Of a stretch of 28,108 bases of DNA, positions 47 through 23,731 are shown one piece after another; within the stretch, counting starts at the first letter, position 1, and each line of letters starts with the position of its first letter. The DNA comes from a virus: IMG/VR virus record IMGVR_UViG_3300017746_004124, positions 1 to 28,108 of that record. One strand, given 5' to 3'. The position numbers and the translations under genes were made by a program. Under the pieces are notes generated by a model that was given only the letters and a program-made list of their open reading frames with translations, made no database searches and was not told the origin of the DNA.

Positions 47-385
47 CTATTTTCTATTATAATCATCTTCAATTCTAACTATATCGTCTTCACCAAAGTA
101 TGATCCATGTTGAACTTCTATAAATACTAAGTCATCTTGTCCTCTATTTGCAACTCGATGCTTTGTTCCTTGTGGTATTCTAATTGAATGACCATATGTA
201 TGTACACCCACTTCATCATCTAATGTAACTGTTGCTGCACCTTTTACCACCGTCCACATCTCACTTCTTTTATTATGATACTGATAGCTAAGCCTACCAC
301 CTGGCTTAACCGTAATTTTTTTTACTTTACAATTTTTTTCTTCATGTAGGATTTCATAACAACCCCATGGTCTATGTTCTTTCAT
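47..385 (-). CDS. Cupin of the mannose-6-phosphate isomerase type II family
   Basis: A 112-residue single-domain cupin resembling the C-terminal isomerase domain of bifunctional GMP/PMI proteins, which interconvert mannose-6-phosphate and fructose-6-phosphate. The family pattern is clear: RPWGCYEIL at residues 5-13, VKKITVKPGGRLSYQYH at 21-37, a metal-binding region around H37 and E42, PQGTKHR at 71-77, and the closing pattern EVQHGSYFGEDDIVR. Stand-alone domains of this size exist in bacteria and phages, often in nucleotide-sugar or surface-glycan pathways. The ATG at 385 is chosen over an in-frame TTG at 391 because it overlaps the cysteine synthase stop as ATGA. The product could supply sugar precursors for host surface glycan remodelling, which is inference. 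Confidence 0.82.
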   Translation of the reverse strand: MKEHRPWGCYEILHEEKNCKVKKITVKPGGRLSYQYHNKRSEMWTVVKGAATVTLDDEVGVHTYGHSIRIPQGTKHRVANRGQDDLVFIEVQHGSYFGEDDIVRIEDDYNRK

Positions 386-1272
386 AAACAACTAAAATAT
401 CTTTCACCTCTATCACAAAGGATTGTTATTACATTATTTATATTATTATCTCGCATATACTGAAATGATGCCATTACATTAGCTCCTGCACTTATTCCTA
501 CAAACAAGCCTTCTCTCAATGCTAAATGTCTTGCTACTTTCTTTGCACATTCTGTATGTACCGTCCTTACACTATGAATCTTTCTCATGTCAACTAAGAA
601 CTTACTACCATCACCAATTCCTTGTATGCCATGAAGCCCTGGCTCAAATCCTGACATGACTGCACTCTCTTCTGGTTCAACTGCTACTAAATTCATACCT
701 GGAAATTGTTCTTGTAAATATTTTCCGGCACCCATTATAGTCCCTCCTGTACCTGTTCCGGCTACAAATGCCTGAGGCCAAAAATCATTATTAGCATATT
801 GCCTAAATTGTCTATCAATCTCTGGTCCTGTATTCTTATAATGTGCTTCAATGTTCAAAGGATTATGGAATTGGTTACAGTTAAAATATCCTCTTGCATC
901 TGATAAGTCATCTCTGACTGCAATTGCTTCATCAAAATTTCCGGCTTCAACTTCAATCAATTCTGCTCCATAGAACTTCAACATTTGTTTACGTTCTTCT
1001 GACATATTTGATGGCATAACAATTTTCATCTTATAACCTCTCTCTGCTGCTAACATAGCAAAAGCAATTCCAGTATTACCTGATGTTGCTTCTATTAAAG
1101 TATCACCTCTTTTTATTAGTCCTCTGTTCTCTGCATCATTTATTATATAGGTCGCCATCCTATCTTTAACACTACCACCAGGATTCATAAATTCACATTT
1201 GCCCCATACAGTATAGCCTCCCATTGTAATTGGAACCATTGGAGTATTGCCTACATAATTTGATAATCTCAT
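382..1272 (-). CDS. cysM: PLP-dependent cysteine synthase (CysM/CysK family)
   Basis: A full-length 296-residue fold-type II PLP enzyme. Family members make cysteine from O-acetylserine and sulfide or thiosulfate. The signatures are intact: NPGGSVKDR at 30-38 with the Schiff-base lysine K36, the substrate loop TSGNTG at 64-69, the phosphate-binding glycine loop GTGTGGT at 173-179, and SAGAN at 262-266 for the pyridine ring. The length is at the short end for the family and closer to CysM than CysK. The gene overlaps its neighbours by 4 nt on both sides, so it is co-transcribed with the lipoprotein and cupin genes. In a phage this would be an auxiliary metabolic gene. CysM-like paralogues making other beta-substituted alanines cannot be excluded. 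Confidence 0.9.
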   Translation of the reverse strand: MRLSNYVGNTPMVPITMGGYTVWGKCEFMNPGGSVKDRMATYIINDAENRGLIKRGDTLIEATSGNTGIAFAMLAAERGYKMKIVMPSNMSEERKQMLKFYGAELIEVEAGNFDEAIAVRDDLSDARGYFNCNQFHNPLNIEAHYKNTGPEIDRQFRQYANNDFWPQAFVAGTGTGGTIMGAGKYLQEQFPGMNLVAVEPEESAVMSGFEPGLHGIQGIGDGSKFLVDMRKIHSVRTVHTECAKKVARHLALREGLFVGISAGANVMASFQYMRDNNINNVITILCDRGERYFSCL

Positions 1273-2865: not shown

Positions 2866-4953
2866 TTATGCTATTTCTAAAAATTTCTTATTCATTGACT
2901 TTGCTACTTCATTAATTTTACTAGTATCAATATATTGAGCCTCTTTACCATACATTGAATCAAAGGCTGATCTCTCACTATCACTAATACCATTTGACCC
3001 TGTAATGAAGTAACTAATAACTTTGATACCTTCTCTGGTCATTTTCTTAACTTGCTCTCTGGTATGCTTTCTTGCCGAATCACCACAATAATTACCATAA
3101 TAAGGCATTCCATCACTCATATTAACAAAATAAGCATCTTTGCCTCTTGATGATGAAACTATCTCTTTCATTATTGCATCAAAACATAAACCTTCTGGCG
3201 TCACTCCTGATATTTGTACATATGGTAACAATGTCTTAATTTGATTCATACCATGCTTTCTTGAATCATATGCAATCAACATTACCGGACAATCATTACC
3301 GGAAAAGTTACTACCTGCTCTAAAACTAATAACACAATCCATATTATCAATCATGCTACTTGCCTTTGCAATTGCTACTGCGGTCTTAACTGCATTATTG
3401 AATCTCATACCACTCATTGAACCACTATTGTCAATTGATATATGAATGATACCTGGATTATAAGCAAATGATTCTATCTTTTCAAATATTGCCTCTGCAC
3501 CAAATCCTGCATTTGCTATCATCCTCTTATCAATCTTACCTGATCTCAATCTACTAAATTTAGTATCTCTTTGTTCTGATCTAACTTTTAACTTCTTACC
3601 TAATACAATACCTCTTCTGATACCTTCTGAAACATTTTCTTTATTTCTTTCAATGCCCCAATAACTATCCCACATACCACATTCAACATTGTTAACTAAA
3701 TCTTTGGTAAAATTATGAATAACGGCTACATTTTCTTTTCTAACATGGCCTTTGTTCTCCCAATAATTTTGTGACTCATATTCAACCTCTTTCATTTCAG
3801 TACCACTATTCTCCAATGCCGTCATTTGTTTTTGCATCTTTTTACTAATACCGGTTTTCTTTACTTCTTCATTCTGAAACTTCTCTTGCTTCTCAATTGC
3901 CTTTTTCAATTGATACTTTTGACGATCATTTAATTCATCTAATCCTTTTGGAGCCTCATTACCTCCTCCTAAATTTCTACCATCACCTTTCTTAGCTTCT
4001 TCACCCTCTGCTTTTGATCCATCATCACTCTCAGCATCTCCTTCTGGTGTCTTTGGTTCTCCATTACCACCACTACATTCATTTTCTTCATCCTCACCTT
4101 GGCCACCTTCTCCTGGACCATTACCTTTTTCTTCTTCTTTATCTAATTCTAAAGATGGAATCTGATCTTCAATAAATTGAAATACCTTAAATGCTAAATC
4201 TCTAACCTCATTGGTATTTTTTAATCTTGCAATATTCTTAAGGTCGATCATATTCCATATTGTTCTCAATTCTAATACATCTAATCTACGATTTGGATTA
4301 GTTAAATTACAAATACGGAATATAAATGAATCCCAATCATAATTGGTATACTCATCACTCTTAAGACCTTTATCAATAATCTTTGCATTAAAATACTTCT
4401 CATACAATGCTTGGTAATAACCTTTATAACCTGGAGCATTTTTATATACCCAAGCATCAATTCTTCTATCCTCTATAATATTGATAAGGGTCTTCATCTT
4501 TGGCAATATATATTCTGATGACCACCATCTATCAAAATTGTCTAATGAACTATCTTTTGCACCATGCTTCTCAGCCAATGATATCATATAACTATCATGA
4601 TTCTTAATCCAATCTTGCAATCCTCTCAATGTATCAAAATCCGTTAACTTAATATGAGATCCTTCATGCAATGCTAATCCAACGGCTGGATCAAAATCCT
4701 TATCTTTCAATGAGGCTGAAATGGTAACTGTCTTACCATCGGTATAACTATCACCACTTGTATTGAACTTAACCGGAATGGCCTCACCAGTAACAATTCT
4801 AACAAAGTTACCAATGGCTCTTCTATAACCTGCTAACTTCATTGGGTCTTTACCCTTTGGCTTAGCAACAATATCTTCTCCTAACATATCATATTGATCG
4901 TCATTGAAGAAATCATTATCTAACCAAAAACTACTATTTGAACTTTTTAACAT
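2866..4953 (-). CDS. VWA-domain protein with HExxH motif (CobT-like partner of a MoxR ATPase)
   Basis: A 695-residue protein. The N-terminal part carries HEGSH at residues 96-100, an HExxH zinc-metalloprotease-type motif, and IIEDRRIDAW near 159-168 as in CobT-like proteins. Residues about 270-335 are a low-complexity acidic Gly/Glu linker. The C-terminal part is a von Willebrand A domain with a MIDAS motif DNSGSMSG at 508-515. VWA proteins of this layout act with MoxR/CobS-type AAA+ ATPases; large marine phages such as T4-like cyanophages carry similar pairs of unresolved function. The partner ATPase lies about 700 bp upstream here. Both genes follow nearly identical 74-nt upstream elements, suggesting joint regulation. 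A true cobaltochelatase role is unlikely, since no cobalamin pathway gene is visible; a chaperone or protease-like role is more plausible. Confidence 0.85.
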   Translation of the reverse strand: MLKSSNSSFWLDNDFFNDDQYDMLGEDIVAKPKGKDPMKLAGYRRAIGNFVRIVTGEAIPVKFNTSGDSYTDGKTVTISASLKDKDFDPAVGLALHEGSHIKLTDFDTLRGLQDWIKNHDSYMISLAEKHGAKDSSLDNFDRWWSSEYILPKMKTLINIIEDRRIDAWVYKNAPGYKGYYQALYEKYFNAKIIDKGLKSDEYTNYDWDSFIFRICNLTNPNRRLDVLELRTIWNMIDLKNIARLKNTNEVRDLAFKVFQFIEDQIPSLELDKEEEKGNGPGEGGQGEDEENECSGGNGEPKTPEGDAESDDGSKAEGEEAKKGDGRNLGGGNEAPKGLDELNDRQKYQLKKAIEKQEKFQNEEVKKTGISKKMQKQMTALENSGTEMKEVEYESQNYWENKGHVRKENVAVIHNFTKDLVNNVECGMWDSYWGIERNKENVSEGIRRGIVLGKKLKVRSEQRDTKFSRLRSGKIDKRMIANAGFGAEAIFEKIESFAYNPGIIHISIDNSGSMSGMRFNNAVKTAVAIAKASSMIDNMDCVISFRAGSNFSGNDCPVMLIAYDSRKHGMNQIKTLLPYVQISGVTPEGLCFDAIMKEIVSSSRGKDAYFVNMSDGMPYYGNYCGDSARKHTREQVKKMTREGIKVISYFITGSNGISDSERSAFDSMYGKEAQYIDTSKINEVAKSMNKKFLEIA

Positions 4954-4961
4954 ATCTTTCC

Positions 4962-5036
4962 TTTTTATTTCTTATTTCTTATACTTAAAGATAAGGATAA
5001 TATCTCAATTAACCTAATTTTTTTCATGCTTTTTTC
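4962..5036 (-). promoter_or_regulatory. Conserved upstream element, copy A (before the VWA gene)
   Basis: The intergenic stretch upstream of the VWA gene is almost identical to the one upstream of the MoxR-like gene (6857-6930). On the minus strand the core reads AAAAAAATTAGGTTAATTG, then a short AT-rich spacer, then CTTATCTTTAAGTATAAG. TATCTTTA resembles the Bacteroidota -7 box TAnnTTTG. The ATG follows 35-40 nt later behind AAAGGAAAG. The strict conservation and location point to a promoter, possibly one read with a phage factor. Confidence 0.65.
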
Positions 5037-5045
5037 CAAAAATGT

Positions 5046-5483: not shown

Positions 5484-5492
5484 TTCTGTTTG

Positions 5493-5566
5493 TGAACCCG
5501 ATAGGATTCGAACCTATGACCGCCTCCTTAGAAGGGAGGTGCTCTATCCAGCTGAGCTACGGGTCC
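5493..5566 (-). tRNA. tRNA-Arg (anticodon UCU)
   Basis: Read on the minus strand, a complete cloverleaf starts at 5566. The acceptor stem GGACCCG pairs with CGGGTTC (one G-U). The D-arm contains AGCTCAGCTGGATAGAGC. The anticodon arm is CCTCC-CTTCTAA-GGAGG with anticodon TCT, and the T-arm contains GGTTCGAATCC. The discriminator is A at 5493; CCA is not encoded in full. It decodes AGA, the favoured arginine codon of this AT-rich genome, so it probably supplements the host tRNA pool. Confidence 0.96.
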
Positions 5567-5665: not shown

Positions 5666-6832
5666 TTAGCTATTCATTTCTGCTTCTTCTTCAACGCCTT
5701 CTGCATTAAAGATATCTTCGCCTTCTGTACTACCACAATACTTTTGAACTACTTGCTTCATATAGGTTCTTTCACTATCTACTCCTCCATCTTCATCAAA
5801 GAAAGGATAAATACAAACCTCTGCCGCTTCTGCTAATTCAAATCCATCTTCTAACAATCCTGCTATCTCAACACTTATTCTGGTACTAATTGAATTTGTA
5901 ATCCTTGGAGCATCACTCTTGATCTCCTTTCTTGTCATTGAAGCAATCTCTGCAATATTATCAGCTTGCTCCTGAGTCACACCTGGATGAAGATCTTTCA
6001 ACAATCCTGACTCTTGTTCCTTATTCAAGGTATCCATTTCAACAATAATAAATCTATCTACTAATGCTCTATCCATTGCTCTGGTTGCGGTATATTCATT
6101 ACCAATATTTGCAGTGGCTACAAATGTAACTCCTTCTGCTACTTCAATGGTTGGTGAATCTTGATGTTCATCTAATCTCAAATACCTTTGTCCTTGATCT
6201 AAAACCGTCATCAAAATATTCCATGCTTCTGGATGTGCTCTTGATATCTCATCTAATAATATAATGGCATCTTTGGTCTGAATTGCTTTCACAAACATTG
6301 ACTCGGCAAAGGTTGTACCTTCTTCTTTCTTAAAATGGGTGTTACCAATCAATGTCCCTCTTGGATCTTGAGTGGCACCTAAATTGAAATAGAACTCCGG
6401 TCTTTCTAATGCCTCTACTAATCTCTTAGCGGCCATTGTCTTACCACAACCTGCTGCTCCGGTCATCATAATATTCTTACCTCTCATTGCAGATCGAACT
6501 AAATACTTCCATTTCAAATCAGGCATTACCAATGTCTTAGGACGAAGATCAACTGACTCATTATGGATAAAATTCAATACTGGATCTGCTTCTATTTTAT
6601 TAGATGCTTCCATTTCTACTTCTTTTGGTTTCATGTCATTAAACAATGCCATATCCTTTCTCATTGATCGGCCGGTCTCTATATCATATTGAATACATTG
6701 ACTATTATCAATACAATGTTGACACATTATATCTCTTACATAAATATCCGTACGGACCTTTCCGGTAACATCTTTTAGGATGTACTTACCATTTTTTACT
6801 TCTACTTCTAAATAAACAAATTTCTTTTTCAT
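5666..6832 (-). CDS. MoxR/CobS-like AAA+ ATPase
   Basis: A 388-residue AAA+ ATPase of the MoxR/CobS (AAA_5-like) class. Walker A is GAAGCGKT at 125-132 and Walker B ILLDE at 191-195; the sensor-1 segment VATANIGNEY and the arginine-finger segment DRALVDRF follow. A cysteine cluster CQHCIDNSQC at 37-46 near the N-terminus could bind a metal. The C-terminal 20 residues are very acidic. MoxR-type ATPases remodel or load partners through a VWA protein, and the likely partner is the HExxH/VWA protein at 2866-4953. The tRNA-Arg and GIY-YIG genes separate the two. An intergenic element shared with the VWA gene lies directly upstream, supporting co-expression. Confidence 0.9.
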   Translation of the reverse strand: MKKKFVYLEVEVKNGKYILKDVTGKVRTDIYVRDIMCQHCIDNSQCIQYDIETGRSMRKDMALFNDMKPKEVEMEASNKIEADPVLNFIHNESVDLRPKTLVMPDLKWKYLVRSAMRGKNIMMTGAAGCGKTMAAKRLVEALERPEFYFNLGATQDPRGTLIGNTHFKKEEGTTFAESMFVKAIQTKDAIILLDEISRAHPEAWNILMTVLDQGQRYLRLDEHQDSPTIEVAEGVTFVATANIGNEYTATRAMDRALVDRFIIVEMDTLNKEQESGLLKDLHPGVTQEQADNIAEIASMTRKEIKSDAPRITNSISTRISVEIAGLLEDGFELAEAAEVCIYPFFDEDGGVDSERTYMKQVVQKYCGSTEGEDIFNAEGVEEEAEMNS

Positions 6833-6856
6833 ACTATAATTTTTGGTGATTACTAT

Positions 6857-6930
6857 TTTTTATTTCTTATTTCTTATACTTAAAGATAAGGATAATATTT
6901 CAATTAACCTAATTTTTTTCAAGCTTTTTT
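6857..6930 (-). promoter_or_regulatory. Conserved upstream element, copy B (before the ATPase gene)
   Basis: This copy matches copy A at all but about two of 74 positions, including the region between TATCTTTA and the AT-rich leader. The ATG of the ATPase gene is at 6832. It starts just after the stop of the small gene at 6938-7105. An identical element ahead of two cooperating genes is best read as a shared promoter or regulator site. Confidence 0.65.
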
Positions 6931-6937
6931 TCAACTT

Positions 6938-7105
6938 TTATATATATCTTTCGCCGGCATACTTTTGCTTCATTTTGATTTCTGAAGTAAGTTCTCTAAC
7001 TACTTTACGGTTTTCTGGATTAGGATTACAATCATGCTCTATAATAGCATAATTCAATTTACTAATCAATCTCTTTACATTACTTGGTACTTGGCTCATT
7101 TTCAT
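6938..7105 (-). CDS. 55-residue charged protein of unknown function
   Basis: A short open frame between two copies of the conserved upstream element. The product begins MKMSQVPSNVKRLISKLNY and ends KQKYAGERYI; it is charged and probably helical. An internal ATG at 7099 is an alternative start. Having its own strong upstream element (7115-7180) argues that it is expressed. No family is recognised. Confidence 0.6.
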   Translation of the reverse strand: MKMSQVPSNVKRLISKLNYAIIEHDCNPNPENRKVVRELTSEIKMKQKYAGERYI

Positions 7106-7114
7106 ATTTTTAAC

Positions 7115-7180
7115 TTTTTATTTATATATAAAGATAAGAAATATCTTTCAATTAACCTAATTTTTTTCAAGCTTTTTTTA
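7115..7180 (-). promoter_or_regulatory. Conserved upstream element, copy C
   Basis: The minus strand carries AAAAAAATTAGGTTAATTG followed after 10-12 nt by TTCTTATCTTTATATATAA, matching copies A, B and D. It lies between the T9SS protein stop (7190) and the ATG of the 55-residue gene (7105). The segment TATAAATA just downstream also equals the T4 late-promoter core, which may be chance in such AT-rich sequence. Confidence 0.6.
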
Positions 7181-7189
7181 GAAAAGTTT

Positions 7190-8293
7190 CTAATAAAATA
7201 CTGAAACATATCCATTCATTTCATATACTTCCATGGGGTTATATTTGATAGCTTTGATGGTATAAACATATACACCTGTTGCAACATCTGCATCCCATTC
7301 ATCTAATGAACTTGTACTAATCCAAACAAGTCCACCCCATCTATTGTATATTCTAACCTCCCACATATCCCAACAACTATCTGCTATTACTTGCCAAGTA
7401 TCATTCCAACCATCTGCATTTGGTGTTACTGCATTTGGTGCATATATAGATGTTTCATCACATTCGCTTTGAGAACAAGGCAATCCAGTAATACAATCTA
7501 TGTATTGAGTTAGAGTATGATATTCTGTAATAGTATCTACTTGATAAATATATTCATATACAACGTATTCATTATAAATAGTATCAGTAATGAACTCGGT
7601 TATTATAATAGTATCTACCTCTGTTATAGTAATAGTATCTGTCTCTGTTATGATATCTGTTATAGTAATAGTATCTGTAACATATTCTATAATTTCAACA
7701 TCTACATATACCGTATCACATGCAGGTGGAGCACAAGTAATAACTAAATTATTGTTTAGATTTACATCCGGATAGTTCTGAGTTTGATTTCCGATATTCG
7801 GGTTTACTGCCCATCCTCCCATATCTGTTGTAGCAGTTTGTGATAAGTTAATTTGCCATATAACTAACTCCATACATAGAGTATCATTAGCAAGCATTTC
7901 AGACCAGCAATCATTTGTTAAACTACCGTAATCATAGACATTAGCGCTCCAACTGTCCCCGCCTTCTAATACCTGATTACCAAAAAGAGTAGCTACTTTA
8001 AATGACCAACCTGGATGATTAGTTGTTCCAGTACATCCCCAATTATAATCTAGGCCTGGTGAGTGCAGTCCTAAAACTATATGACTAACAGTTGTGTTAT
8101 TATTTATATGAGGGCTAGCACTATTCTCGCACGTGTTACCTTCATTTGTAAATTCATTGCATCCGCAATTTTCGCTATTAATTGCTTCAATAGTAATATC
8201 TCCAGTTGCTGCATTCCAGCTACTGATCTCTACATCACATTGTGCAGATGTCATTGGCGCCCATAAGGCTAGTAAGTAAATTAATTTTCGCAT
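7190..8293 (-). CDS. Secreted protein with type B T9SS sorting domain
   Basis: A 367-residue protein with an N-terminal signal peptide (MRKLIYLLALWAPMTSAQ, cleavage near residue 18). A cysteine-containing beta-rich domain covers about 19-190, and a low-complexity Thr/Ile/Asp/Glu linker (repeats such as DTITITE) about 195-265. The C-terminal 85 residues match the gliding motility-associated (CHU_C, TIGR04131-type) domain: APNAVTPNADGWNDTW, then WEVRIYNRWGGLVW, then GVYVYTIKA. In Bacteroidota this domain directs proteins through the type IX secretion system to the cell surface or medium. The gene overlaps the upstream dockerin-like gene by 13 nt, so both are probably made together. It may alter the host surface or be released; its exact role is unknown. 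Confidence 0.85.
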   Translation of the reverse strand: MRKLIYLLALWAPMTSAQCDVEISSWNAATGDITIEAINSENCGCNEFTNEGNTCENSASPHINNNTTVSHIVLGLHSPGLDYNWGCTGTTNHPGWSFKVATLFGNQVLEGGDSWSANVYDYGSLTNDCWSEMLANDTLCMELVIWQINLSQTATTDMGGWAVNPNIGNQTQNYPDVNLNNNLVITCAPPACDTVYVDVEIIEYVTDTITITDIITETDTITITEVDTIIITEFITDTIYNEYVVYEYIYQVDTITEYHTLTQYIDCITGLPCSQSECDETSIYAPNAVTPNADGWNDTWQVIADSCWDMWEVRIYNRWGGLVWISTSSLDEWDADVATGVYVYTIKAIKYNPMEVYEMNGYVSVFY

Positions 8294-9935: not shown

Positions 9936-10244
9936 TTATCCTTTTAGTAATGTCTTTGAATTATTGTCAACCAATCCTCTTTTTGCATAATACTCATCGC
10001 GAGCTTTTTGCCTCCTTTCTTCACAATATGCCTTTTCACTATTTGATAATGACTCCCAGAATGCTGCAAATTCGCCGGCTTTAGTATTCATATATCTATC
10101 ATATACATCTTCCTTTGTTTCATTCAGATGTTTAGATAAAATGGTTCCTAATATTGTAGATGCCTTTGGTTGAACAGAAATTTTATTCTTTTCCATTTCT
10201 GCATACCATTCATTCATTATTTCTACTACTTGATCTTTACTCAT
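9936..10244 (-). CDS. Helical protein of unknown function
   Basis: A 102-residue, charged protein beginning MSKDQVVEIMNEWYAEMEKN, mostly predicted helical, ending with a Lys-rich tail. The ATG follows AAAAGGAATAAGTT, a good ribosome binding site. It lies directly downstream of the tmRNA coding piece, about 20 nt from its likely 3' end, so a processing event there would also define the 5' end of this mRNA. No family is recognised. Confidence 0.65.
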   Translation of the reverse strand: MSKDQVVEIMNEWYAEMEKNKISVQPKASTILGTILSKHLNETKEDVYDRYMNTKAGEFAAFWESLSNSEKAYCEERRQKARDEYYAKRGLVDNNSKTLLKG

Positions 10245-10265
10245 AACTTATTCCTTTTAATATTA

Positions 10266-10506
10266 ATACCTCCATCCTCCGGGTTATTTAACGACCTTTA
10301 CCCTTTTATGGCCGGTGGTTCTGGGGACTTAATTAAGCCGCCATTGCCATTTCAACATGTTCGCCTGTTAAACGTGATCTTCATTATACCCTTACTTACT
10401 GTCAATTCCATAACATCCCCATATTGTAAGTTGTCACTTGGTGGAGATGCTGGGATTCGAACCCAGGTCCATATAAGCAGCTAATATAACTACTAGCGAT
10501 CATTTA
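10266..10506 (-). ncRNA. ssrA: Circularly permuted (two-piece) tmRNA
   Basis: On the minus strand the 3' half of a tmRNA comes first. A T-arm CTGGG-TTCGAAT-CCCAG (10466-10450) is followed by CATCTCC (10449-10443) and an encoded ACCA (10442-10439). After an 18-nt spacer, the 5' half begins with GGGGATG (10420-10414). GGGGATG pairs with CATCTCC over 7 bp with G3-U70, the alanine identity pair. TTATGGAATTGACAG after it matches the tmRNA D-loop consensus (E. coli TTCTGGATTCGACGG). P2-type helices link the pieces: 10399-10393 with 10479-10473, 10390-10383 with 10490-10483, and 10379-10375 with 10502-10498. A tag frame ends in Ala-Ala-stop. A further helix (10324-10312 with 10282-10272) closes the coding piece. 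The 5' end near 10506 and 3' end near 10266 are estimates. No ordinary tRNA fits, because no 5' acceptor strand lies upstream of the T-arm. Confidence 0.9.
10333..10365 (-). other. tmRNA proteolysis-tag reading frame
   Basis: Within the tmRNA coding piece one frame reads GEHVEMAMAA followed by TAA (GGC at 10365-10363, stop at 10335-10333). Known tmRNA tags of Bacteroidota begin with G, often GE, and end in ALAA or AMAA, so this fits that host group rather than the ANDENYALAA type. The resume codon GGC is inferred from this similarity. The Ala-Ala end is the ClpX-type degron. Confidence 0.8.
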
Positions 10507-10851
10507 TAAATATACTTCTGCACCATTCTCATCATCTTCAAAGACTGATACATATACGCATTTAAACTCTTCCATAATTTCTTTTGCTAACATTTCACAA
10601 CTCTTAGCTCCGAACTCATGTGTTCTAGATTCAAAGTTAAAGTACTCATGTTCTAGATATTCTATAATATCTCTCTTGAACATAATAAACTCTACATCTC
10701 TATCATCATGATTAACTTGCTTCTTAGCTGTAATAAACCATTTATGTCTATGCATATGTGATAGGAACCCTACTTCTGGAAATACCTTATCAGCTGCTGG
10801 CCAATTATGTAATCCTTCTATTTCTAATTTTGCTATAACGTTTGTTTTCAT
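10504..10851 (-). CDS. Conserved phage protein of unknown function
   Basis: A 115-residue protein with the pattern GLHNWPAADKV at 14-24, LSHMHRHKWFITAKKQVNHD at about 30-49, then DVEFIMFKRDI, and a closing segment with CEMLAKEI and VFEDDENGAEVY. Small proteins of this pattern (HRH followed by EFI and a SVSEDGENGA-like end) occur in many phages; I know no established function. Its stop codon TAA (10504-10506) sits at the estimated 5' end of the tmRNA, so transcript and tmRNA precursor probably overlap or are one RNA. Confidence 0.7.
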   Translation of the reverse strand: MKTNVIAKLEIEGLHNWPAADKVFPEVGFLSHMHRHKWFITAKKQVNHDDRDVEFIMFKRDIIEYLEHEYFNFESRTHEFGAKSCEMLAKEIMEEFKCVYVSVFEDDENGAEVYL

Positions 10852-10874
10852 ATTATTAATATATAAAATTTATT

Positions 10875-11420
10875 TCAACTATCCAAATGATCTTGTACCT
10901 TATTCCAATAATACACTGTTGCATCTTTATGCATACCCCTTGGTCCACCATTCCAACATCTTGCAATTTCTTCCGGCTCTGTTAAATTGTAATGATCACA
11001 ATATATTTCAAACATCATGATTGATTTTTGTCTAGACCATCTATCGTTATATGCAAACTCATATTCCTTTCCTTGTCTCTTTAATATTCTATTTACATCA
11101 TCAACCATTGTTTTTCTAATCTGTAAACAGCCTACAGCATCTTCTCCAACTGCATGGGCAGAATCATTATTTCTACTTTCAACCATCATTAATGCTGATA
11201 ATAAAAATGTTGCATCCTTTTCTATTTGATCAAATATTTCATTTTCCCATTGCAATGTATCAATACATTGAATCAAACTATCTATATAATTTTGTTGGTC
11301 TTCTACTTCACATTCTAATATTTCTACTTGTTTCTCATAATGAACTATTGTTGATATGACATAAATTGAACTTAAAAATATTAATGCTATCCATAAAAAT
11401 GTTTGTACTGAATCTTTCAT
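10875..11420 (-). CDS. Membrane-anchored lytic transglycosylase-like protein
   Basis: From ATG 11420 the product is 181 residues. An N-terminal hydrophobic span (about residues 7-26) is followed by a coiled-coil stretch (about 30-65) and a C-terminal SLT/lysozyme-like domain. The domain shows SALMMVESRNN with a catalytic-type Glu near residue 81, GEDAVGCLQI near 92-101, and a later ARCWNGGPRGM segment as in transglycosylases cleaving the peptidoglycan glycan strand. The start is chosen because the ATG sits 1 nt after the ClpS stop (TAA-T-ATG); an in-frame start at 11486 would overlap by 65 nt. It may serve lysis or local wall opening. Confidence 0.78.
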   Translation of the reverse strand: MKDSVQTFLWIALIFLSSIYVISTIVHYEKQVEILECEVEDQQNYIDSLIQCIDTLQWENEIFDQIEKDATFLLSALMMVESRNNDSAHAVGEDAVGCLQIRKTMVDDVNRILKRQGKEYEFAYNDRWSRQKSIMMFEIYCDHYNLTEPEEIARCWNGGPRGMHKDATVYYWNKVQDHLDS

Positions 11421-11741: not shown

Positions 11742-11951
11742 TTACTCATGTTCTATTTTATTTATACCTTGAGATTCATATTTTTCTATGAATTCTTTTG
11801 TAACTTCTGTTCTATGGTTTATACCATATGCTTCTTTGGCTTCTATATTGTTACCAGACCCATCTCTAACATATACTAAATATATAGGTTGGTGATCAGT
11901 TTGGCTCAACTCTGCCGTGTCTATCTGTTTGCTTATTATTTTCCAATCCAT
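11742..11951 (-). CDS. Small protein of unknown function
   Basis: From ATG 11951 the product is 69 residues (MDWKIISKQIDTAELSQ onward), with a strand-rich middle (IYLVYVRDGSG) and a helical acidic end. The ATG is preceded by AAGGG at good spacing, which favours it over the in-frame ATG at 11984. It overlaps the upstream UVR-like gene by 56 nt, more than is usual in this window. It lies directly upstream of clpS. No family is recognised. Confidence 0.55.
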   Translation of the reverse strand: MDWKIISKQIDTAELSQTDHQPIYLVYVRDGSGNNIEAKEAYGINHRTEVTKEFIEKYESQGINKIEHE

Positions 11952-12138
11952 TGATGATCCCTTGTAAGATTGCACATTTTTCATATTCCTCTTTATCTAT
12001 AAAATACTTAATCATGGAGTTGATGAATTTTATTTTTTTATCTTGATCAAAGGAAGGAGGCCATACATTGATGTTTGATATAACATCATAGACTTCTTCA
12101 ATCGTTAGATCCAGATAATTTTCCACTGCTATCTCCAT
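11896..12138 (-). CDS. UVR-motif-like small protein (second copy)
   Basis: An 80-residue acidic protein. Its segment MIKYFIDKEEYEKCAILQGI matches the C-terminus of the protein at 8931-9251 and of the partial gene at 28024, all UVR-like helices. The C-terminal 15 residues (NKQTDRHGRVEPN) are polar and differ. A UVR-type motif also occurs in Clp-associated adaptors such as McsA, and this gene lies two genes upstream of the clpS-like gene, but any link is inference. The start follows the motif at 12149-12165. Confidence 0.65.
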   Translation of the reverse strand: MEIAVENYLDLTIEEVYDVISNINVWPPSFDQDKKIKFINSMIKYFIDKEEYEKCAILQGIINGLENNKQTDRHGRVEPN

Positions 12139-12148
12139 TTACTTCTTA

Positions 12149-12165
12149 TTTAATATAAATATAAG
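12149..12165 (-). promoter_or_regulatory. Candidate promoter motif ATATTTATAT, copy 1
   Basis: The minus strand reads ATATTTATATTAAATAAG 14-25 nt before the ATG at 12138. The same core lies before the genes starting at 14499 and 22262 and, with one mismatch, at the tmRNA 5' end. It could be a late promoter; in such AT-rich sequence the evidence is only the repeated position. Confidence 0.35.
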
Positions 12166-12204
12166 AAAAATATTCCGTAATAACAAATAATTTGATGGCT
12201 AATT

Positions 12205-12627
12205 TTAGTCGAGTGACCCCATCTCACCACGGCTCATTCTATCACCAAAATCATCTTTGGCTTTAGTTTTCAAGCTGATATAGAATTTATTTTCTGCTGG
12301 TGTTCTGTTACCTAATGTCCCAAAATATGATCTTAATTCATATTGATATATAGGATCTTTCTTTTTCTTGAATTCTATAGATAAATCTCTTATGATTTTA
12401 ATCACTTTTGCTTTATCTGCAGATGTAAATTTATTTTTGAATTCAACATCATCTGCACTAGTAGTAAAAGATAATGTGCTATTGGTAACTTTGATTGAAC
12501 CTATTTCTTCTGGCAAGTTCTTGATATGTGTAGCAAACTCTTGCATTGAATTTGTTGTTCCTTGAATTTGATATTCATCGCCTTTGGCAAATTCAAATCT
12601 TTCGTATAGGTCTTTTAATTTAATCAT
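12205..12627 (-). CDS. Unknown protein with capsid-targeting-like leader
   Basis: A 140-residue protein beginning MIKLKDLYE-RFEF. The first nine residues match the leader shared with several unrelated proteins in the window and end in L-Y-E, the T4-type prohead protease pattern (L/I-x-E). The body (residues 15-140) is a mixed alpha/beta domain rich in Lys, Asp, Ser and Thr, and I recognise no family. It is followed by 66 nt without a gene. The leader suggests head packaging as internal cargo; that is inference. Confidence 0.7.
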   Translation of the reverse strand: MIKLKDLYERFEFAKGDEYQIQGTTNSMQEFATHIKNLPEEIGSIKVTNSTLSFTTSADDVEFKNKFTSADKAKVIKIIRDLSIEFKKKKDPIYQYELRSYFGTLGNRTPAENKFYISLKTKAKDDFGDRMSRGEMGSLD

Positions 12628-13947: not shown

Positions 13948-14499
13948 TTATCTTCTTTCAATTTCTTTTAATGTTTTTGCACATGCTTCCTTAAACATGT
14001 TTAAAAACTCATCAGCTTTTTCTAAATCTTCAATACTTTTTGCATCCTCTAACCAATCAATTGCATTACCTAGATCTGCTCCTTCTGTATGATAATTAAC
14101 ATCTGTAAATGATGCATGTAAATCGTTTAGCATCTTAATATATTTAGGATCGGTTGTTCCTGACATATATGTAGTTCCACCTTCTGGTATCTCTAAACTA
14201 GCACCATATTTTAACATACCAACATAATCAAAATCATTAGACCACATATCACCTGGCTGAAATGGTTTAACTGGTTTAACCTTATCTTCTCTCAATCCTC
14301 CGGCATATACATCGTTACCATCTTTATCCTTTTCAATTGCCAAATCATTTTCAGCACCTCTCTTGATGTCTACTTTATCTGCTTTCTTATCATCTACCTT
14401 TGTAGTATGTAATAAATCTTTAAGTGCTACCTTTTCATTTTTTTCATGGATCGCCATTTTATATTTCTTGATCCATTGTCCGTGATTAAATTCTGCCAT
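13948..14499 (-). CDS. Acidic protein of unknown function
   Basis: A 183-residue, highly charged protein starting MAEFNHGQWIKKYKMAIHEK. The N-terminal 70 residues are Lys/Asp-rich and probably disordered or helical; the C-terminal 60 residues are acidic and helical (AIDWLEDAKSIEDLEKADEF). An I-H-E sequence near residue 18 loosely fits a prohead protease site, but the leader does not otherwise match. It has a good AAAAGGG ribosome binding site. No family is recognised. Confidence 0.65.
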   Translation of the reverse strand: MAEFNHGQWIKKYKMAIHEKNEKVALKDLLHTTKVDDKKADKVDIKRGAENDLAIEKDKDGNDVYAGGLREDKVKPVKPFQPGDMWSNDFDYVGMLKYGASLEIPEGGTTYMSGTTDPKYIKMLNDLHASFTDVNYHTEGADLGNAIDWLEDAKSIEDLEKADEFLNMFKEACAKTLKEIERR

Positions 14500-14509
14500 T
14501 GTTTTTCCC

Positions 14510-14526
14510 TTTTATATAAATATTAG
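14510..14526 (-). promoter_or_regulatory. Candidate promoter motif ATATTTATAT, copy 2
   Basis: The minus strand reads ATATTTATATAAAAGGG directly before the ATG at 14499, with the AAAAGGG also serving as ribosome binding site. The motif overlaps the stop codon of the thioredoxin-like gene. It is one of three exact copies placed just upstream of genes. Confidence 0.35.
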
Positions 14527-16311: not shown

Positions 16312-19300
16312 TTACTGTTTAATAACCCTTTTAGTTATTCTTAACTCATCATAAAGTATGACCATATTATATATACCATCTGGTACACTTGTAAAATCAA
16401 TTCTATTAGAATTTTGTTCTGTAAACATTAATTTACCCATTATATCATATACCTGTACATCAATATTTAATCTAGTATCTATATTTAATATATTTCTTGT
16501 TGGATTAGGATATACAACTATTCCCTGTCCTCCCAACTCATCTATTGAAGTTGGCCAACCTAATTGGCAATAGTCATACATTGATTGACAACTTGCATCC
16601 CAATCATTTGTACAACAATAGTCATCTACATCAATTACCCAAGCATAGCATCCATCATTTAACCAATAAGGAACTCCTGGACCTCCATAACATCCTGCAT
16701 TATATAAACAAGATGTCGAATCTGATACATTTGCTAATGGATCATAATTCCATGCACTTACATCGGTACATCCTATCACTATATCAATACAACTTCCATC
16801 ATCAAAACAAGCATCCGGATCATAATTTAATGACCAATCTTGGGTACATCCTGCAATATAACAACATGAATTATCTAATGTATTTGCTAATGGATTAAAG
16901 TTTAATGATGTATTATCAGTACAACCATATACATATGCCTCACATGTTCCGTTGTCTGTATTTGCAAGTGGATCATAATTAAATTGAGTTGAATCTGTAC
17001 ATCCATAAATAAATGGTATACAATTACCTGATGATGTATTTGCTAATGAATTATAGTTCCACATTGTAACATCCATACAACCAATTACAACCGGTATACA
17101 AGAATTATCATTTGTATTAGCTAATGGGTCATAATTAAATTGAGTAGGATCTGTACATCCATAAATAAATGGCACACAACTACCATCATCTGTATTTGCA
17201 GTTATACTATAATTGTACATGGTAGAATCTGTACATCCATATACATAAGGATCACAAGTACCATCATCATCTGTAGCTAAAGGATTAAAATTAATTGATA
17301 AAGGGTCTGTACAACCTGCAATCTCTAACTCATCACAAACACCATCTGCATCTACATCATTTATACATGCGCCATAACAATCATAATATTGAATTGGATA
17401 TGTACAACCTCCGTTATCTACATTTGCAATTGCATCATAGTTACATGCGGTAACATCTGTACAACCTAAATAAATACAAGATAAGTCATCAACATTTGCT
17501 AATGGATTATAATTATATCCTGCCGTATCTGTACAACCATTAACAATTGGAATACATGAATTATCATCTACAGTTGCTAATGAATCATAATTAAGAGCAA
17601 ATTCATTTGTACATCCATATATAATAGGAATACATGAATTATCATCTACATTAGCATTTGGATCATAATTAGCTGATGTTGAATCCATACATCCTAACAC
17701 TGTTGGTATACAATATGTTCCACAGAATGGTATTGCTGTATATTTTGTAAAGAACGGAGAATCAAATCCTTGAAGTGCTCCTTGTCCATTATTTGCAAAA
17801 GGATTCTGTCCCTCATACATTAGTTCAACACCATTAGCATTTGTCAACTTAAATGAATTGTGCCAAGTCTGAAATTGTACTTCTTGTGGTGGTTGTTGTG
17901 GTCCACCTACTTCAAAATAGAATACTTCTACTGGCACACCAGGATCTAATATTATATTCCATGTTTGTTGATAATTTCCTGGCCCCATTGTATACGTTCC
18001 TAAGTCTATACCATTTTGATATACACCTATATAAGAATTACCCCAGCCATCACCTCCAGCATCTCCTATCCATAATTCATAGTTACAATCTGGTACTAGG
18101 TCCATTATTGTTGCATTAGGATCATAATTAAATGCATTAGGATTAGTACAACCATATATATGTAAATTGGTACAAGACCCATCATCATTATTTGCTAATG
18201 GATTAAATTCTTGATAATCATCATCTGTACATCCGTCTATTGTTGGAATTGTAGGACATGGTGTTCCAACTTGTGCTCCTGAATATAAAGTATTTCCAAA
18301 TCCTGGATTGTCCATAAACCAAATAGTATCTCCTGCACAATCATAAATAACAATTGAACCATCCATTGTACCACCTGATGTAGAACCTGCCATACCATCA
18401 CCAAAGTCATCATTAACTATTAGTTCAAATCCTGCATTTTGATCTATACAGAAGTTATATGTATATGTTTGTCCTATATCATTAAAATCATATTCACCTA
18501 CAAGTACTGAATCAATAACTCCTAAGCTATTCATTAACCAAGATGTTTCTCCTGGCCAATTATCTAATGTAATTTCCATTGTTATTTGGTATTCGGTTGT
18601 TGTATCACATACAGTTCCTGCACAACTACCATCATCATTAGTTGCCCATGGATTATAAGATACTTGAGTTGGATCTGTACAACCATCAATACATGGAGTA
18701 GGAGTATAAGTAATAGTATCAGACATAGTACCATCTGCAAACTCTACTTGTAAATAATGCTCTACTGACCAATTAGGTGGCATTTGTCCGTTACCTGCAT
18801 TTACTGCAAAATTAGTTGCATTAGGACCAACACCATATTGATATGGACCGACACCTTCTGCATTTGTATACCATACCTTAACTGTTTCGCATGATGGATT
18901 ATATGCTTCTGTTGTCCATTCAAATATAATTAAGGCTTGTCCTCCTGGGTAACAATTTTGATATGCATTAGATGTTAAAATCCCACCACAGGCAGGATAA
19001 GTACAACTACCATCATCAATAGTAGCTAGTGAGTCAAAATTTAATGCATTTGTATCTATACATCCTGGCACATCTGGTGCAGGTGGAGCACAAGGTGCAA
19101 TTATTAATGTATCTGTATATAAAGTTCCAAAGTCTCCTGCTACATACATAATTGTATCTTGACAATCATTTTGTATAAGGAACCATCCTTCCGGTGAACC
19201 ATTAAATCCTCCTAAGCCATCACCATATTGATCATATAAATTAACAATAATAGTTCCACCTAGATCAATTGTTGTATCATATAGAGTTTGGCCAGTCATT

Positions 19301-19461
19301 ATAGAATCAGATTGTGCAATAATTGGATATCCGCCTGGAGGTGTTATTGTCCAAGAAGTTTCTGATGCATAATCATCTGTTAATAATTGTATGTTTATCC
19401 AACTATTCTGTGCTAATAACATTGTTGGCAATAATGCCAATACTAATAATAACTTTCTCAT
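16312..19461 (-). CDS. Giant secreted GCTD-repeat protein with type A T9SS sorting domain
   Basis: A 1049-residue protein, the largest in the window. A signal peptide (MRKLLLVLALLPTMLLAQ) is followed by a beta-rich domain (about 20-125), about sixteen GCTDxxAxNYdPxAnxDDGSC repeats (residues 133 to about 921) broken by three other beta-rich domains, a short Cys-rich region, and a C-terminal type A sorting domain (VVYPNPTRNILNID, then VQVYDIMGKLMF, then IYNMVILYDE) like TIGR04183. Type A domains direct T9SS export and often surface attachment. The acidic Asp/Cys repeats may bind calcium. Such repeat proteins are common in marine Bacteroidota, not in known phages, so the gene was probably acquired from a host. 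An adhesin or surface-coat role is plausible. Confidence 0.88.
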   Translation of the reverse strand: MRKLLLVLALLPTMLLAQNSWINIQLLTDDYASETSWTITPPGGYPIIAQSDSIMTGQTLYDTTIDLGGTIIVNLYDQYGDGLGGFNGSPEGWFLIQNDCQDTIMYVAGDFGTLYTDTLIIAPCAPPAPDVPGCIDTNALNFDSLATIDDGSCTYPACGGILTSNAYQNCYPGGQALIIFEWTTEAYNPSCETVKVWYTNAEGVGPYQYGVGPNATNFAVNAGNGQMPPNWSVEHYLQVEFADGTMSDTITYTPTPCIDGCTDPTQVSYNPWATNDDGSCAGTVCDTTTEYQITMEITLDNWPGETSWLMNSLGVIDSVLVGEYDFNDIGQTYTYNFCIDQNAGFELIVNDDFGDGMAGSTSGGTMDGSIVIYDCAGDTIWFMDNPGFGNTLYSGAQVGTPCPTIPTIDGCTDDDYQEFNPLANNDDGSCTNLHIYGCTNPNAFNYDPNATIMDLVPDCNYELWIGDAGGDGWGNSYIGVYQNGIDLGTYTMGPGNYQQTWNIILDPGVPVEVFYFEVGGPQQPPQEVQFQTWHNSFKLTNANGVELMYEGQNPFANNGQGALQGFDSPFFTKYTAIPFCGTYCIPTVLGCMDSTSANYDPNANVDDNSCIPIIYGCTNEFALNYDSLATVDDNSCIPIVNGCTDTAGYNYNPLANVDDLSCIYLGCTDVTACNYDAIANVDNGGCTYPIQYYDCYGACINDVDADGVCDELEIAGCTDPLSINFNPLATDDDGTCDPYVYGCTDSTMYNYSITANTDDGSCVPFIYGCTDPTQFNYDPLANTNDNSCIPVVIGCMDVTMWNYNSLANTSSGNCIPFIYGCTDSTQFNYDPLANTDNGTCEAYVYGCTDNTSLNFNPLANTLDNSCCYIAGCTQDWSLNYDPDACFDDGSCIDIVIGCTDVSAWNYDPLANVSDSTSCLYNAGCYGGPGVPYWLNDGCYAWVIDVDDYCCTNDWDASCQSMYDYCQLGWPTSIDELGGQGIVVYPNPTRNILNIDTRLNIDVQVYDIMGKLMFTEQNSNRIDFTSVPDGIYNMVILYDELRITKRVIKQ
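16700..19065 (-). repeat. Sixteen GCTD-type repeats within the secreted protein
   Basis: The translated unit is about 22-26 residues: GC(T/M/I)D, then (S/F)NY(D/N)P(L/N)A(N/T) and DDGSC. I count 16 units with varied spacing, including one degenerate unit (YGCTNPNAFNYDPNA followed by TIMDLVPDC). In DNA the units diverge, so this is an old repeat array rather than a recent tandem expansion. Confidence 0.8.
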
Positions 19462-20670: not shown

Positions 20671-21450
20671 TTACCCTATATTTTGTATTGGTTCTAATTG
20701 ATCAACTGTTTTTGTTAAACTATCTCCTGGCCTATATGTTGTACCTGTATTCATTACTGTATAGATTGCAACCGTACCCATCTCATTAGGTAGTGTCATT
20801 ATCTTTTTAACAACACCTATTGATCCGTGATGTGGACATGAACCATTTTTATTTTTAACTATGTCACCAACACCAAATGTATATTCCTGATCTTCTTTAA
20901 TAACGCCATCATCAATTGGTTGTGACTTTGCAGCTTTAATTTTTTCTTTTGATGTTTTAATAGTATTCTTCATAGATGCCTGAGCTGCTTTCAATTTTGC
21001 TTTTGCAGCATCCATTGCTGCTTCAGCACCTTCTACTTCAGCATCGACTTCTTCTTGACTTATTTCTTTAAGTAGATCGAACATTGCAAACTTTGGCATA
21101 CGATGATCTTTCATTTGAGCTGCTGCATCATCTTTCTTTTCATCATCCTTTGGCTCTTCCTCTTTTGGTTCCTCAGCCTTTTCTTCTCCGCCACCAAATT
21201 TGGCTTCCATACCTTTATTATATGTTTCCAAATCAACTACATTTCCTGATACTGATAATTGCATTACATTCCTATAATCAAATCTTTGCATATCTCCATC
21301 TTCATCCATACCAAAACCAAATGTAGGATCTTCTACATCATCTGCATCAGTTATAGTTAGATATCTACCACCCACATACACTTTAGTTCGTAGGCCTGTT
21401 AATGAAAATTGTCCTATAATAACGTTATTGAAATATTTTGCTGGTCCCAT
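20671..21450 (-). CDS. Coiled-coil protein with SH3-like C-terminus, possibly structural
   Basis: A 259-residue protein: an N-terminal beta-rich domain (about 1-80), an acidic Glu/Lys linker (about 88-110), a long Ala/Lys coiled coil (about 120-172; EVEGAEAAMDAAKAKLKAA) and a C-terminal SH3-like region (YTFGVGDIVKNKNG, then HHGSIGVVKKI). FDLLKE near 123-128 loosely fits an internal prohead protease site. The start overlaps the ParB-like stop by TAATG. Internal or scaffold-related proteins of large phages have such layouts; function is not shown. Confidence 0.65.
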   Translation of the reverse strand: MGPAKYFNNVIIGQFSLTGLRTKVYVGGRYLTITDADDVEDPTFGFGMDEDGDMQRFDYRNVMQLSVSGNVVDLETYNKGMEAKFGGGEEKAEEPKEEEPKDDEKKDDAAAQMKDHRMPKFAMFDLLKEISQEEVDAEVEGAEAAMDAAKAKLKAAQASMKNTIKTSKEKIKAAKSQPIDDGVIKEDQEYTFGVGDIVKNKNGSCPHHGSIGVVKKIMTLPNEMGTVAIYTVMNTGTTYRPGDSLTKTVDQLEPIQNIG

Positions 21451-22262
21451 TATTCTTGTCCCGAATTTCCTAGGGCGTTCCCTATTGTTCTTAATACTGG
21501 TATTGCAATCTTAATATCTAAATCAATAAATGTAACTTCCAATTTAGCTTTTGGATTAGCTAACATTGCAGCTGCCCATCTATGATGACCATCTAAAATA
21601 TAATTACCCTTAACAACAATAATATCATTAGGATTCATTCCTGATACCACACCTTTTCTTGCTTGATCACCCACTTGACCAAAAACACCACCAATTGCTT
21701 TTTCAAGATAAATAGCTGATTGACTCGGTTTTAACAAATTAGCTGCTAACTTTGTATCTTTACTTTTAACTATATCAGCATTACCACCTTCTTCACCATC
21801 CTCAGTTCCTTTTGTCAAAAAGTCTTTATCGTTCATGTATGTAGAATCTGCACCACTTTTTGAAAATTGGTCTTTATTAAATTTACCTTTTCCGTCTTCA
21901 GATCCATCAACATCATCTCCATATGGTCCAAATACATCATACTCACCTTTTATAATTGCTTGTTGAACTATTTCAACTTGGTCTGAAGTAATTACTGGCA
22001 TATCAATACGTTTTGGAGCTCCTGATGGAGGTGATATAGATGCTAATTTATCCACTCTTGCTTGGAATCCTTCTTCACCACCCATATCAGCTAAAAACTC
22101 TGCAGCTCTTTCATCTGTCCAATTTAATTTATATGCCTTTAATCCTTTTCCGGTTTGTAACATATTTAATGCTTCACTCTCTCCTCCGTAAACACTTGTT
22201 AGTTCTGATATTAGTTTACGAAAACTTTTAGTTTCCATCAGTAATGGTTTTAGTTTTAACAT
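21450..22262 (-). CDS. ParB-like protein with capsid-targeting-like leader
   Basis: A 270-residue protein beginning MLKLKPLLME-TKSF, the shared ten-residue leader ending L-M-E. Residues about 85-240 contain ParB N-domain-like features, clearest in ILDGHHRWAAA at 222-232, the phosphate-binding DGHHR motif of ParB/Srx-type proteins, some of which are CTPases or nucleases. Large phages carry such proteins without plasmid partition roles. With the leader it may be packaged in the head and act on DNA after injection. The motif at 22286-22299 lies upstream of its AGGG site. Confidence 0.78.
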   Translation of the reverse strand: MLKLKPLLMETKSFRKLISELTSVYGGESEALNMLQTGKGLKAYKLNWTDERAAEFLADMGGEEGFQARVDKLASISPPSGAPKRIDMPVITSDQVEIVQQAIIKGEYDVFGPYGDDVDGSEDGKGKFNKDQFSKSGADSTYMNDKDFLTKGTEDGEEGGNADIVKSKDTKLAANLLKPSQSAIYLEKAIGGVFGQVGDQARKGVVSGMNPNDIIVVKGNYILDGHHRWAAAMLANPKAKLEVTFIDLDIKIAIPVLRTIGNALGNSGQE

Positions 22263-22285
22263 AATTTTTCCCTAGTTTATTATTT

Positions 22286-22299
22286 TAATATAAATATGC
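22286..22299 (-). promoter_or_regulatory. Candidate promoter motif ATATTTATAT, copy 3
   Basis: The minus strand reads GCATATTTATATTAAAATAA about 25 nt before the ATG at 22262. Copies 1 and 2 lie at 12149 and 14510. The position fits a promoter; the AT-rich context limits confidence. Confidence 0.35.
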
Positions 22300-22655: not shown

Positions 22656-23219
22656 TTAATGTTTCCAATTTTTAAATGCATGCAAAATTTCCTCATCTAC
22701 ATGTACTTGTTCTACTTTCTTTTCTATTACTTTAGGCGTTGGTTTGAATACTTCAAGAATTTCTAAAGCTCTTCTACGTTGAATGCCTGATATTGTTTCT
22801 TCTTTATGAGCCTTTTCGATCTTTTCAATCGCATAATTTTTATCATGATCTAACCAATCCATAGCTTCTCCTAACACTTTCTCAAAATTAGCCTGACTAT
22901 ATTCCGGCTTCTTTCTTGCTACTCTAGTACCTAATGATAATGAAGATGATTTTGGACTAGGCTCATTCTTACTTGCTCTATATAACATAGAACCAAAACC
23001 TTGTCTACCTTTACTATCTAAGTTTCGTAAATATTCTTTTGTATCTTTATTCTTAATAACCTCTACTTCAGAATATGTAGTCTTACCGGAGATAATTGTT
23101 CTAACATAATTACGTTCTACCGAAGAACATCCAACACATTCTCTTGTATTTGGTAAAGCTTTCAATCTAGCTTTTGGTATAGGCTTATGACATTTACGAC
23201 AACCTCTCATATAACTCAT
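22656..23219 (-). CDS. DksA/TraR-type zinc finger protein
   Basis: From ATG 23219 the product is 187 residues. The N-terminal finger has CRKCHKPIPKARLKALPNTR, then CVGC, giving two CxxC pairs and the I-x-x-x-R-L-x-A-x-P pattern of DksA C4 zinc fingers, which bind RNA polymerase. The remaining part is basic with a helical C-terminus (about 110-187). Unlike DksA, no long coiled-coil with an acidic tip precedes the finger, so regulation of transcription is only possible. Starts at 23243 and 23210 are alternatives; it overlaps the esterase gene by 26 nt. Confidence 0.7.
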   Translation of the reverse strand: MSYMRGCRKCHKPIPKARLKALPNTRECVGCSSVERNYVRTIISGKTTYSEVEVIKNKDTKEYLRNLDSKGRQGFGSMLYRASKNEPSPKSSSLSLGTRVARKKPEYSQANFEKVLGEAMDWLDHDKNYAIEKIEKAHKEETISGIQRRRALEILEVFKPTPKVIEKKVEQVHVDEEILHAFKNWKH

Positions 23220-23730
23220 TTGTTTGATTAATACCTGATTCAAAATGATTAAATATATATTTGAATTGTTCTACTGGAGTTCTATGGCCATATGCACCTC
23301 TTCTGATATTATTAGCATTCCAATCTAATTTATCATTTTCGTTCAACCAATCTACCGTCTTTGAAGGGGCAATAACATCATCCATATTTCCTAATGCTAA
23401 AAATACCTTTGAACCTTTCTTTTCTTCTCCTACCCACTCTCCTATGATAGGATTAACTGATCTACTATGTAATGCCGGATTCAATAACAATACAGGAACT
23501 CCTAATTCTTTACCTAAGTTCCATGCAAACCATCCACCCATAGATGAACCTACAATAACATCATAATTGTTATGTCTAATTAATTTATAAATTCTTTCGT
23601 ATGATTTATCATCATGATAATCTATCTGAGGACTCTGGACTGAATGTCCTTGATCTTGTAACCATTTTACCTTTTGGCAATTAGGTTGACTTTCTAACCC
23701 ATGTAAAAACAATATTCGCATCTTTCTCAT
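23194..23730 (-). CDS. YqiA-like alpha/beta-hydrolase esterase
   Basis: A 178-residue alpha/beta hydrolase of the YqiA (UPF0227) type. FLHGLES at 8-14 is the oxyanion strand, GSSMGGW at 61-67 holds the nucleophile S63, LLLNPALH at 81-88 is the family segment, and D117/D118 with H149 (GHRTP) complete the triad. Family members cleave short acyl esters; the substrate here is unknown. A conserved upstream element (23732-23792) lies directly before the start. An internal ATG at 23721 is an alternative start. Confidence 0.82.
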   Translation of the reverse strand: MRKMRILFLHGLESQPNCQKVKWLQDQGHSVQSPQIDYHDDKSYERIYKLIRHNNYDVIVGSSMGGWFAWNLGKELGVPVLLLNPALHSRSVNPIIGEWVGEEKKGSKVFLALGNMDDVIAPSKTVDWLNENDKLDWNANNIRRGAYGHRTPVEQFKYIFNHFESGINQTNELYERLS

Positions 23731-23731
23731 C

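Follow-up and report, generated by a model that had tools for sequence, protein, structure and literature searches.

A short element that recurs, nearly unchanged, before several gene starts of a phage raises the questions of whether it is a promoter and, if so, which RNA polymerase would read it. The element lies in a window that comprises the complete IMG/VR virus record IMGVR_UViG_3300017746_004124 (28,108 bases), nearly all genes of which are on the minus strand. The explanation that we consider probable is that it represents the non-late promoter (class I) of a T4-like phage with a Bacteroidota host, that the host polymerase reads it, and that a second kind of site (class II) serves late genes.

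The repeated element in the window

A repeat search of the window returned one family of four 78-nt copies (A to D, starting at 4962, 6857, 7105 and 23722), with B, C and D being 96%, 77% and 73% identical to copy A, respectively. The 19-mer AAAAAATTAGGTTAATTGA occurs four times in the window, once with a single mismatch and always on the minus strand, and is absent from the reversed control. All four cores sit in short non-coding gaps preceding ORF starts (4954-5045, 6833-6937, 7106-7189 and 23731-23792), and the -7 box reads TATCTTTA in every copy. Based on repeat family and matrix score, each copy is a putative class I promoter on the minus strand: copy A (4962-5039) of the VWA gene (2866-4953), copy B (6857-6934) of an AAA+ ATPase gene (5666-6832), copy C (7105-7182) of a 55-aa ORF (6938-7105) and copy D (23722-23799) of a gene assigned to UPF0227 by Pfam (23194-23730). 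The -33 box, TTAGG throughout, lies at 5017-5013, 6912-6908, 7160-7156 and 23777-23773 in copies A to D, and the -7 box at 4993-4986, 6888-6881, 7136-7129 and 23753-23746. With the -7 box placed at -12 to -5, following PMC9723704, the start sites computed from its position would fall near 4981, 6876, 7124 and 23741.

With the ATPase protein as query, 80 related phage loci were collected, and 11 records were read, several of them fragments and others whole contigs of 120-132 kb; a simple ORF picker supplied the gene calls. A search with the VWA protein led to three distant records, and BLAST of the region against known phages returned tRNA matches only. With the window excluded from training, a position matrix built from six distant phage records alone gave the window copies scores of 63.8, 59.8, 56.5 and 54.9; the best score among 100 dinucleotide-Markov versions of the window was 7.2. 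The original prediction of four repeated copies before gene starts and outside coding sequence was thus borne out, while its count fell short, as the matrix scan found two further sites on the minus strand. The fifth (12140-12208; score 33.9) precedes an 80-aa ORF (11896-12138) and has a -33 box reading ATTTG (12188-12184) and a -7 box reading TATATTTATATTAAA, with its TA at 12163. The borderline sixth (10840-10908; score 10.1), before an ORF at 10504-10851, has ATTTGG at 10888-10883 and a weak -7 box with its TA at 10863. All 11 records contain matrix sites, from 6 to 27 per record and mostly before ORFs (training sites included), and the Markov and reversed controls of these records contain none; these controls are independent in part only, the held-out test being the independent one.

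Several other features of the window, all on the minus strand, were observed. A tRNA-Arg(TCT) gene (5492-5566) lies between a GIY-YIG-like gene and the ATPase gene, and a predicted tmRNA gene (10242-10534) encodes an unusual tag ending in MAA (EHVEMAMAA). The phage protein encoded at 7190-8293 carries a CHU_C type IX secretion sorting domain (Pfam E 9.6e-15) and, therefore, a host-type secretion signal. A 1049-aa protein (16312-19461) is coded by many 78-nt-spaced repeats, and its end resembles a T9SS-type C-terminal domain.

Layout of class I sites and the base at -5

From 5' to 3', class I sites consist of UP-like A-tracts, ATTWGG at -33, a 20-nt gap in which TTGA is frequent, TAHHTTTA at -7 (-12 to -5), TATA, and a leader up to the ATG that is short and A-rich. 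Among 99 sites upstream of ORFs that were picked only by CT-TAnnTTTA and, thus, chosen without the -33 box, TT[TA]G was present at one fixed position, exactly 20 nt 5' of the -7 box, in 76, and TTG in 74. In relatives this box reads TTTGG, TTTGCC, GGTTGG or TTAGG, and mostly contains TTTG, as does the fifth site of the window. Because relatives read TTTG in the same columns, 20 nt before the -7 box, the upstream box is identified as the -33 element at its usual spacing, and the earlier claim that it is not the usual -33 element is not supported. On this alignment, AAAAAATTAGGTTA is an A-tract followed by a predicted -33 element with A for T. A comparison of the -33 region, made as a test for within-genome homogenisation of the box, gave 0.75 within the window and 0.68 between the window and relative G002; because this effect is only mild, homogenisation is not claimed.

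What sets these sites apart is the last base of the -7 box. With the -33 box as the only anchor of the alignment, 64 sites had A at -5 and 1 had G. In pooled phage upstream regions TATCTTTA was enriched 15.3-fold (69 sites), TATCTTTG did not occur, and TAnnTTTG stood at 0.8-fold. Upstream regions of a Flavobacteriaceae MAG were enriched 24.8-fold for TATATTTG and 5.6-fold for TAnnTTTG. TAnnTTTA was also mildly enriched upstream of bacterial genes (2.8- and 3.5-fold), and the A form is, therefore, not entirely foreign to the host. Across 60 Bacteroidia genomes, the TTTGG box together with the G form was found 109 times versus 50 in the reversed control, and the A form was not enriched (60 versus 65). 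A pattern-only host control with three MAGs proved noisy and was set aside in favor of the upstream enrichment and the 60-genome scan. In published promoters of Flavobacterium johnsoniae T-12, A-11, T-8, T-7, T-6 and G-5 are nearly invariant and the -33 element is weak (PMC6847099), in F. psychrophilum TAnnTTTG occupies -12 to -5 (PMC9723704), and in Bacteroides fragilis the -33 element is TTTG (PMC7366714).

Compared with the primary-sigma (sigma-ABfr) promoters of Bacteroidota (-33 TTTG, -7 TAnnTTTG), from which transcription begins 4-5 nt past the -7 box, class I sites have the same two boxes at 20-nt spacing (within the range of about 19-21 nt that characterizes sigma-ABfr promoters), short A-rich leaders and the TAHHTTT core, in which most sites lack G at -10/-9. 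Unlike sigma-ABfr promoters, they have A at -5, where the host base is a nearly invariant G; their -33 element (ATTWGG; TTAG in the window) is much stronger, and A-tracts and downstream TATA are conserved. The suggestion that the element represents a phage-specific promoter class is supported, as the CT-TAnnTTTA sites of the relatives share one layout that departs from the host consensus at -5.

A cultured relative bears on whether the A is a trait of phage or host. Flavobacterium phage immuto, the host of which is Flavobacterium sp. LMO8 from the Baltic Sea, has matches to the sigma-like and capsid proteins of these phages and uses the same promoter class: its upstream regions contain 43 TAnnTTTA versus 2 TAnnTTTG (0.5-fold), in addition to A-tracts and a TTG that is again spaced by 20 nt. 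Because published Flavobacterium promoters use G-5 and immuto has A, A-5 looks like a phage trait rather than a dialect of the host. G at -5 is retained, with the same layout, in more distant relatives (L045, L048-L053, L071, L073 and all of G027) and, therefore, the base changed at some point within the group, whichever of the two came first. A single base at -5 thus separates the promoters of A-type phages from those of the host, and may let infected cells distinguish virus from host genes.

Additional observations concern the hosts of this group. Phage Mel-JY01 (PP395634.1; L182-L191), deposited with Microcystis as host, is closely related, with a capsid protein 60% identical to that of G014, and has several TTG-N20-TATATTTG promoters of Bacteroidota type; it may actually infect a Bacteroidota bacterium that was present in the culture. 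DNA of this phage family, with several proteins 57-83% identical to those of the window, makes up a 4.1-kb contig (L129; DIAL01000159.1) in the bin of Flavobacteriaceae MAG UBA5079, which gives a weak host hint. A cysteine-synthase-like gene of the window (382-1272, minus strand) has its closest cellular copies, 59% identical, in Bacteroidetes MAGs.

Genes served and the late-like class

In several lineages class I sites precede genes for DNA ligase, RNA ligase, SSB, exonuclease, endonuclease, QueD, GroEL and phosphoesterase, as well as ATPase, VWA and UPF0227 genes. The ATPase of the window is MoxR/CbbQ-like (Pfam AAA_5 1.2e-18, bpMoxR 1.1e-7, CbbQ_C 5.8e-6); its partner, called VWA, has no Pfam match and weak matches to phrog_1576 and phrog_5298 (cobalamin biosynthesis protein, CobT-like). 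Class I sites precede both genes, in the window as well as in relatives G002, G009, G011, G014 and G016. Copies A and B had been thought to tie these partners together; they are indeed near-identical, but the element also stands before the 55-aa ORF and the UPF0227 gene of the window, and before ligase, SSB, nuclease and GroEL genes of relatives. Because class I is general and not private to the pair, it speaks for co-expression, or a common temporal class, of ATPase and VWA and for no special link.

Class II sites were defined as NATATTTATAWTAAA without a -33 box. The eleven records contain 100 in sense and 0 in antisense orientation, and 88 of the 100 are placed 10-60 nt before a start, versus about 7 expected from Markov copies. 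They precede genes for portal, tail tube, baseplate hub, adaptor and PhoH proteins. By this pattern, the window has late-like sites on the minus strand at 22284-22298 (CATATTTATATTAAA, before ORF 21450-22262) and 14510-14524 (AATATTTATATAAAA, before ORF 13948-14499). In G014, 20 of the 21 class I sites fall within 11.8-49.5 kb, and most class II sites lie outside that span. Judged from the content and functions of the genes served, class I would be early or middle, and class II looks like a late promoter. T4 late promoters consist of a single -10 type element with no -35/-33 element, and the sigma factor gp55 serves the late genes. Class II resembles them in having no -33 element, in preceding virion genes and in the presence of a sigma-like protein in the phages, while class I differs by its conserved -33 element.

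Two variants of these classes were also seen. The fifth site of the window joins a class I -33 box to the class II -7 box TATATTTATATTAAA (12163-12149, minus strand), and might act both early and late. In G002 and G009 a weaker sub-class combines the shared -33 box with a -7 box reading TTATATTAA (e.g., ATTAGGATAnnTGAAA...TTATATTAA) and precedes SSB, QueD and UDP-glucose dehydrogenase genes; this is possibly a separate temporal class.

The gp23 family (PF07068) was found in 8 of 16 records, though not in the 28-kb window itself, and a gp20-type portal (PHROG 213) and gp32-type SSB also occur in relatives. Judging by gp23, the records belong to the T4 superfamily, and in Bacteroidota phages of this T4-like (gp23-type) kind class I appears to be the main promoter of non-late genes. 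The gp23 proteins of Far-T4 and marine Bacteroidetes T4-like phages (RM378; PMC4360716, PMC7198788) and of immuto are 36-57% identical to that of G014. The Far-T4 survey reported detecting none of the T4 core genes that regulate transcription (PMC4360716), and promoters are not mentioned in PMC4360716 or PMC7198788.

Which polymerase reads class I sites

In the mechanism that we favor, host RNA polymerase with its primary sigma factor would read class I sites as soon as infection begins, and the non-consensus base at -5 would be offset by the A-tracts together with a strong -33 box. A-5 would then keep phage early genes on while the G-5 promoters of the host are shut off or outcompeted, and late genes would use class II, probably via a sigma-like protein of the phage. 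Reading by the host sigma factor is suggested by the -33/-7 layout and the lack of TTTG-type promoters in A-type records (those with A at -5); because no host-type promoters able to open the infection were found in these records, an unmodified host polymerase is the simplest initial reader. T4 early promoters offer a parallel, being host-like but extended and stronger, with upstream A/T elements, and repeated before early genes. Class I sites are likewise host-like, with upstream A/T elements and repetition before early-type genes; they differ in being built on the Bacteroidota consensus, with a changed base where host promoters are invariant. A bolder proposal, on which we place somewhat less than an even chance, is that A-5 serves as a self-mark: the phage would alter or restrict the host polymerase so that G-5 promoters, i.e., the whole host genome, are silenced, while A-5 promoters stay active.

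Class I sites may instead be middle promoters, read by a polymerase that the phage has modified, a reading that we regard as possible but rather doubtful. T4 middle promoters combine a MotA box near -30 with a -10 element and depend on MotA and AsiA. By similar logic, a phage activator or sigma-appropriating factor would bind ATTWGG or the sigma factor and shift the preference at -5 from G to A. Like T4 middle promoters, class I sites have a conserved phage box near -30 together with a -10/-7 element; unlike them, the box coincides with the host -33 TTTG. A modified polymerase would account for a -33 box much better conserved than in the host (PMC6847099), for the almost exclusive use of A-5 even in immuto, the host of which is a known Flavobacterium, and for the other relatives that keep G in the same layout. 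However, no other, host-type promoter class from which the factor could first be expressed was found in A-type phages, as seen from the TAnnTTTG values for the pooled regions and immuto given above. Furthermore, a crude profile of genes present in A-type and absent in G-type phages, by single-sequence BLAST, yielded no convincing candidate, because the phages are too diverged for this method.

A sigma factor of the phage itself is an unlikely reader of class I, although a candidate is at hand. Family A1 proteins (230-270 aa; e.g., G002 L088:8937-9752) occur in most of the larger records and have no family name in PHROGs. Pfam Sigma70_r2 matched 1 of 10 members (E 0.003), and the match of the G013 member (6.3e-5) is below the cut-off. 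Structural matches of an AlphaFold model (pLDDT 78.7) were almost exclusively sigma factors, with a predicted region-2-like domain (residues 48-145) superimposing at rmsd 2.7 A over 95 residues; the Foldseek E-values exceed 0.1, and helical matches need caution. Helices at the C-terminus, where region 4 would be, could contact the -33 box. Against this role, A1 did not match sigma families or gp55 significantly by sequence: a PDB sequence search and a profile comparison with gp55 were both negative, and T4 gp55 (phmmer), PHROG 234 and PHROG 12791 found nothing in these records, although no control genome matched either. In T4, the corresponding sigma factor serves late genes. Because A-type and G-type phages alike have A1 (L071, L073 and Mel-JY01 being examples of the latter), it does not track or explain A-5 and is better placed as a late sigma factor. 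In addition, one relative, G022, combines the T4-like layout with a further sigma factor of the ordinary sigma-70 type (L085:1372-2079; Sigma70_r2 and r4).

It is quite improbable that the A reflects only a host difference, i.e., that the primary sigma factor of the hosts of A-type phages prefers A-5 and nothing is phage-specific. Immuto is A-type on Flavobacterium, the promoters of which have G-5 (PMC6847099, PMC9723704), and no A enrichment was seen in the sum over 60 Bacteroidia genomes. Very improbable is a non-promoter element (operator, terminator, RNA element or mobile repeat), since, although the long near-identical copies A and B could suggest a mobile repeat, folding of the four gaps was no better than that of shuffles (z 1.53, -0.15, -1.77 and 0.26), copies vary between genomes while the -33/-7 columns stay constant, and the sites are always in sense orientation and immediately before ORFs.

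Little seems to have been written on gene control in T4-like Bacteroidota phages, abundant as they are. The two classes, early/middle and late, provide a readable code by which operons of uncultured phages could be annotated and Bacteroidota hosts suggested, and class I sites should be usable for building strong Flavobacterium promoters. Family A1 adds a candidate sigma factor, proposed from its modelled structure, that neither Pfam nor PHROGs names. Immuto and Flavobacterium sp. LMO8 form a cultured pair in which the role of the -5 base is directly testable; if the self-mark proposal is true, a single base would switch the transcription of a cell.
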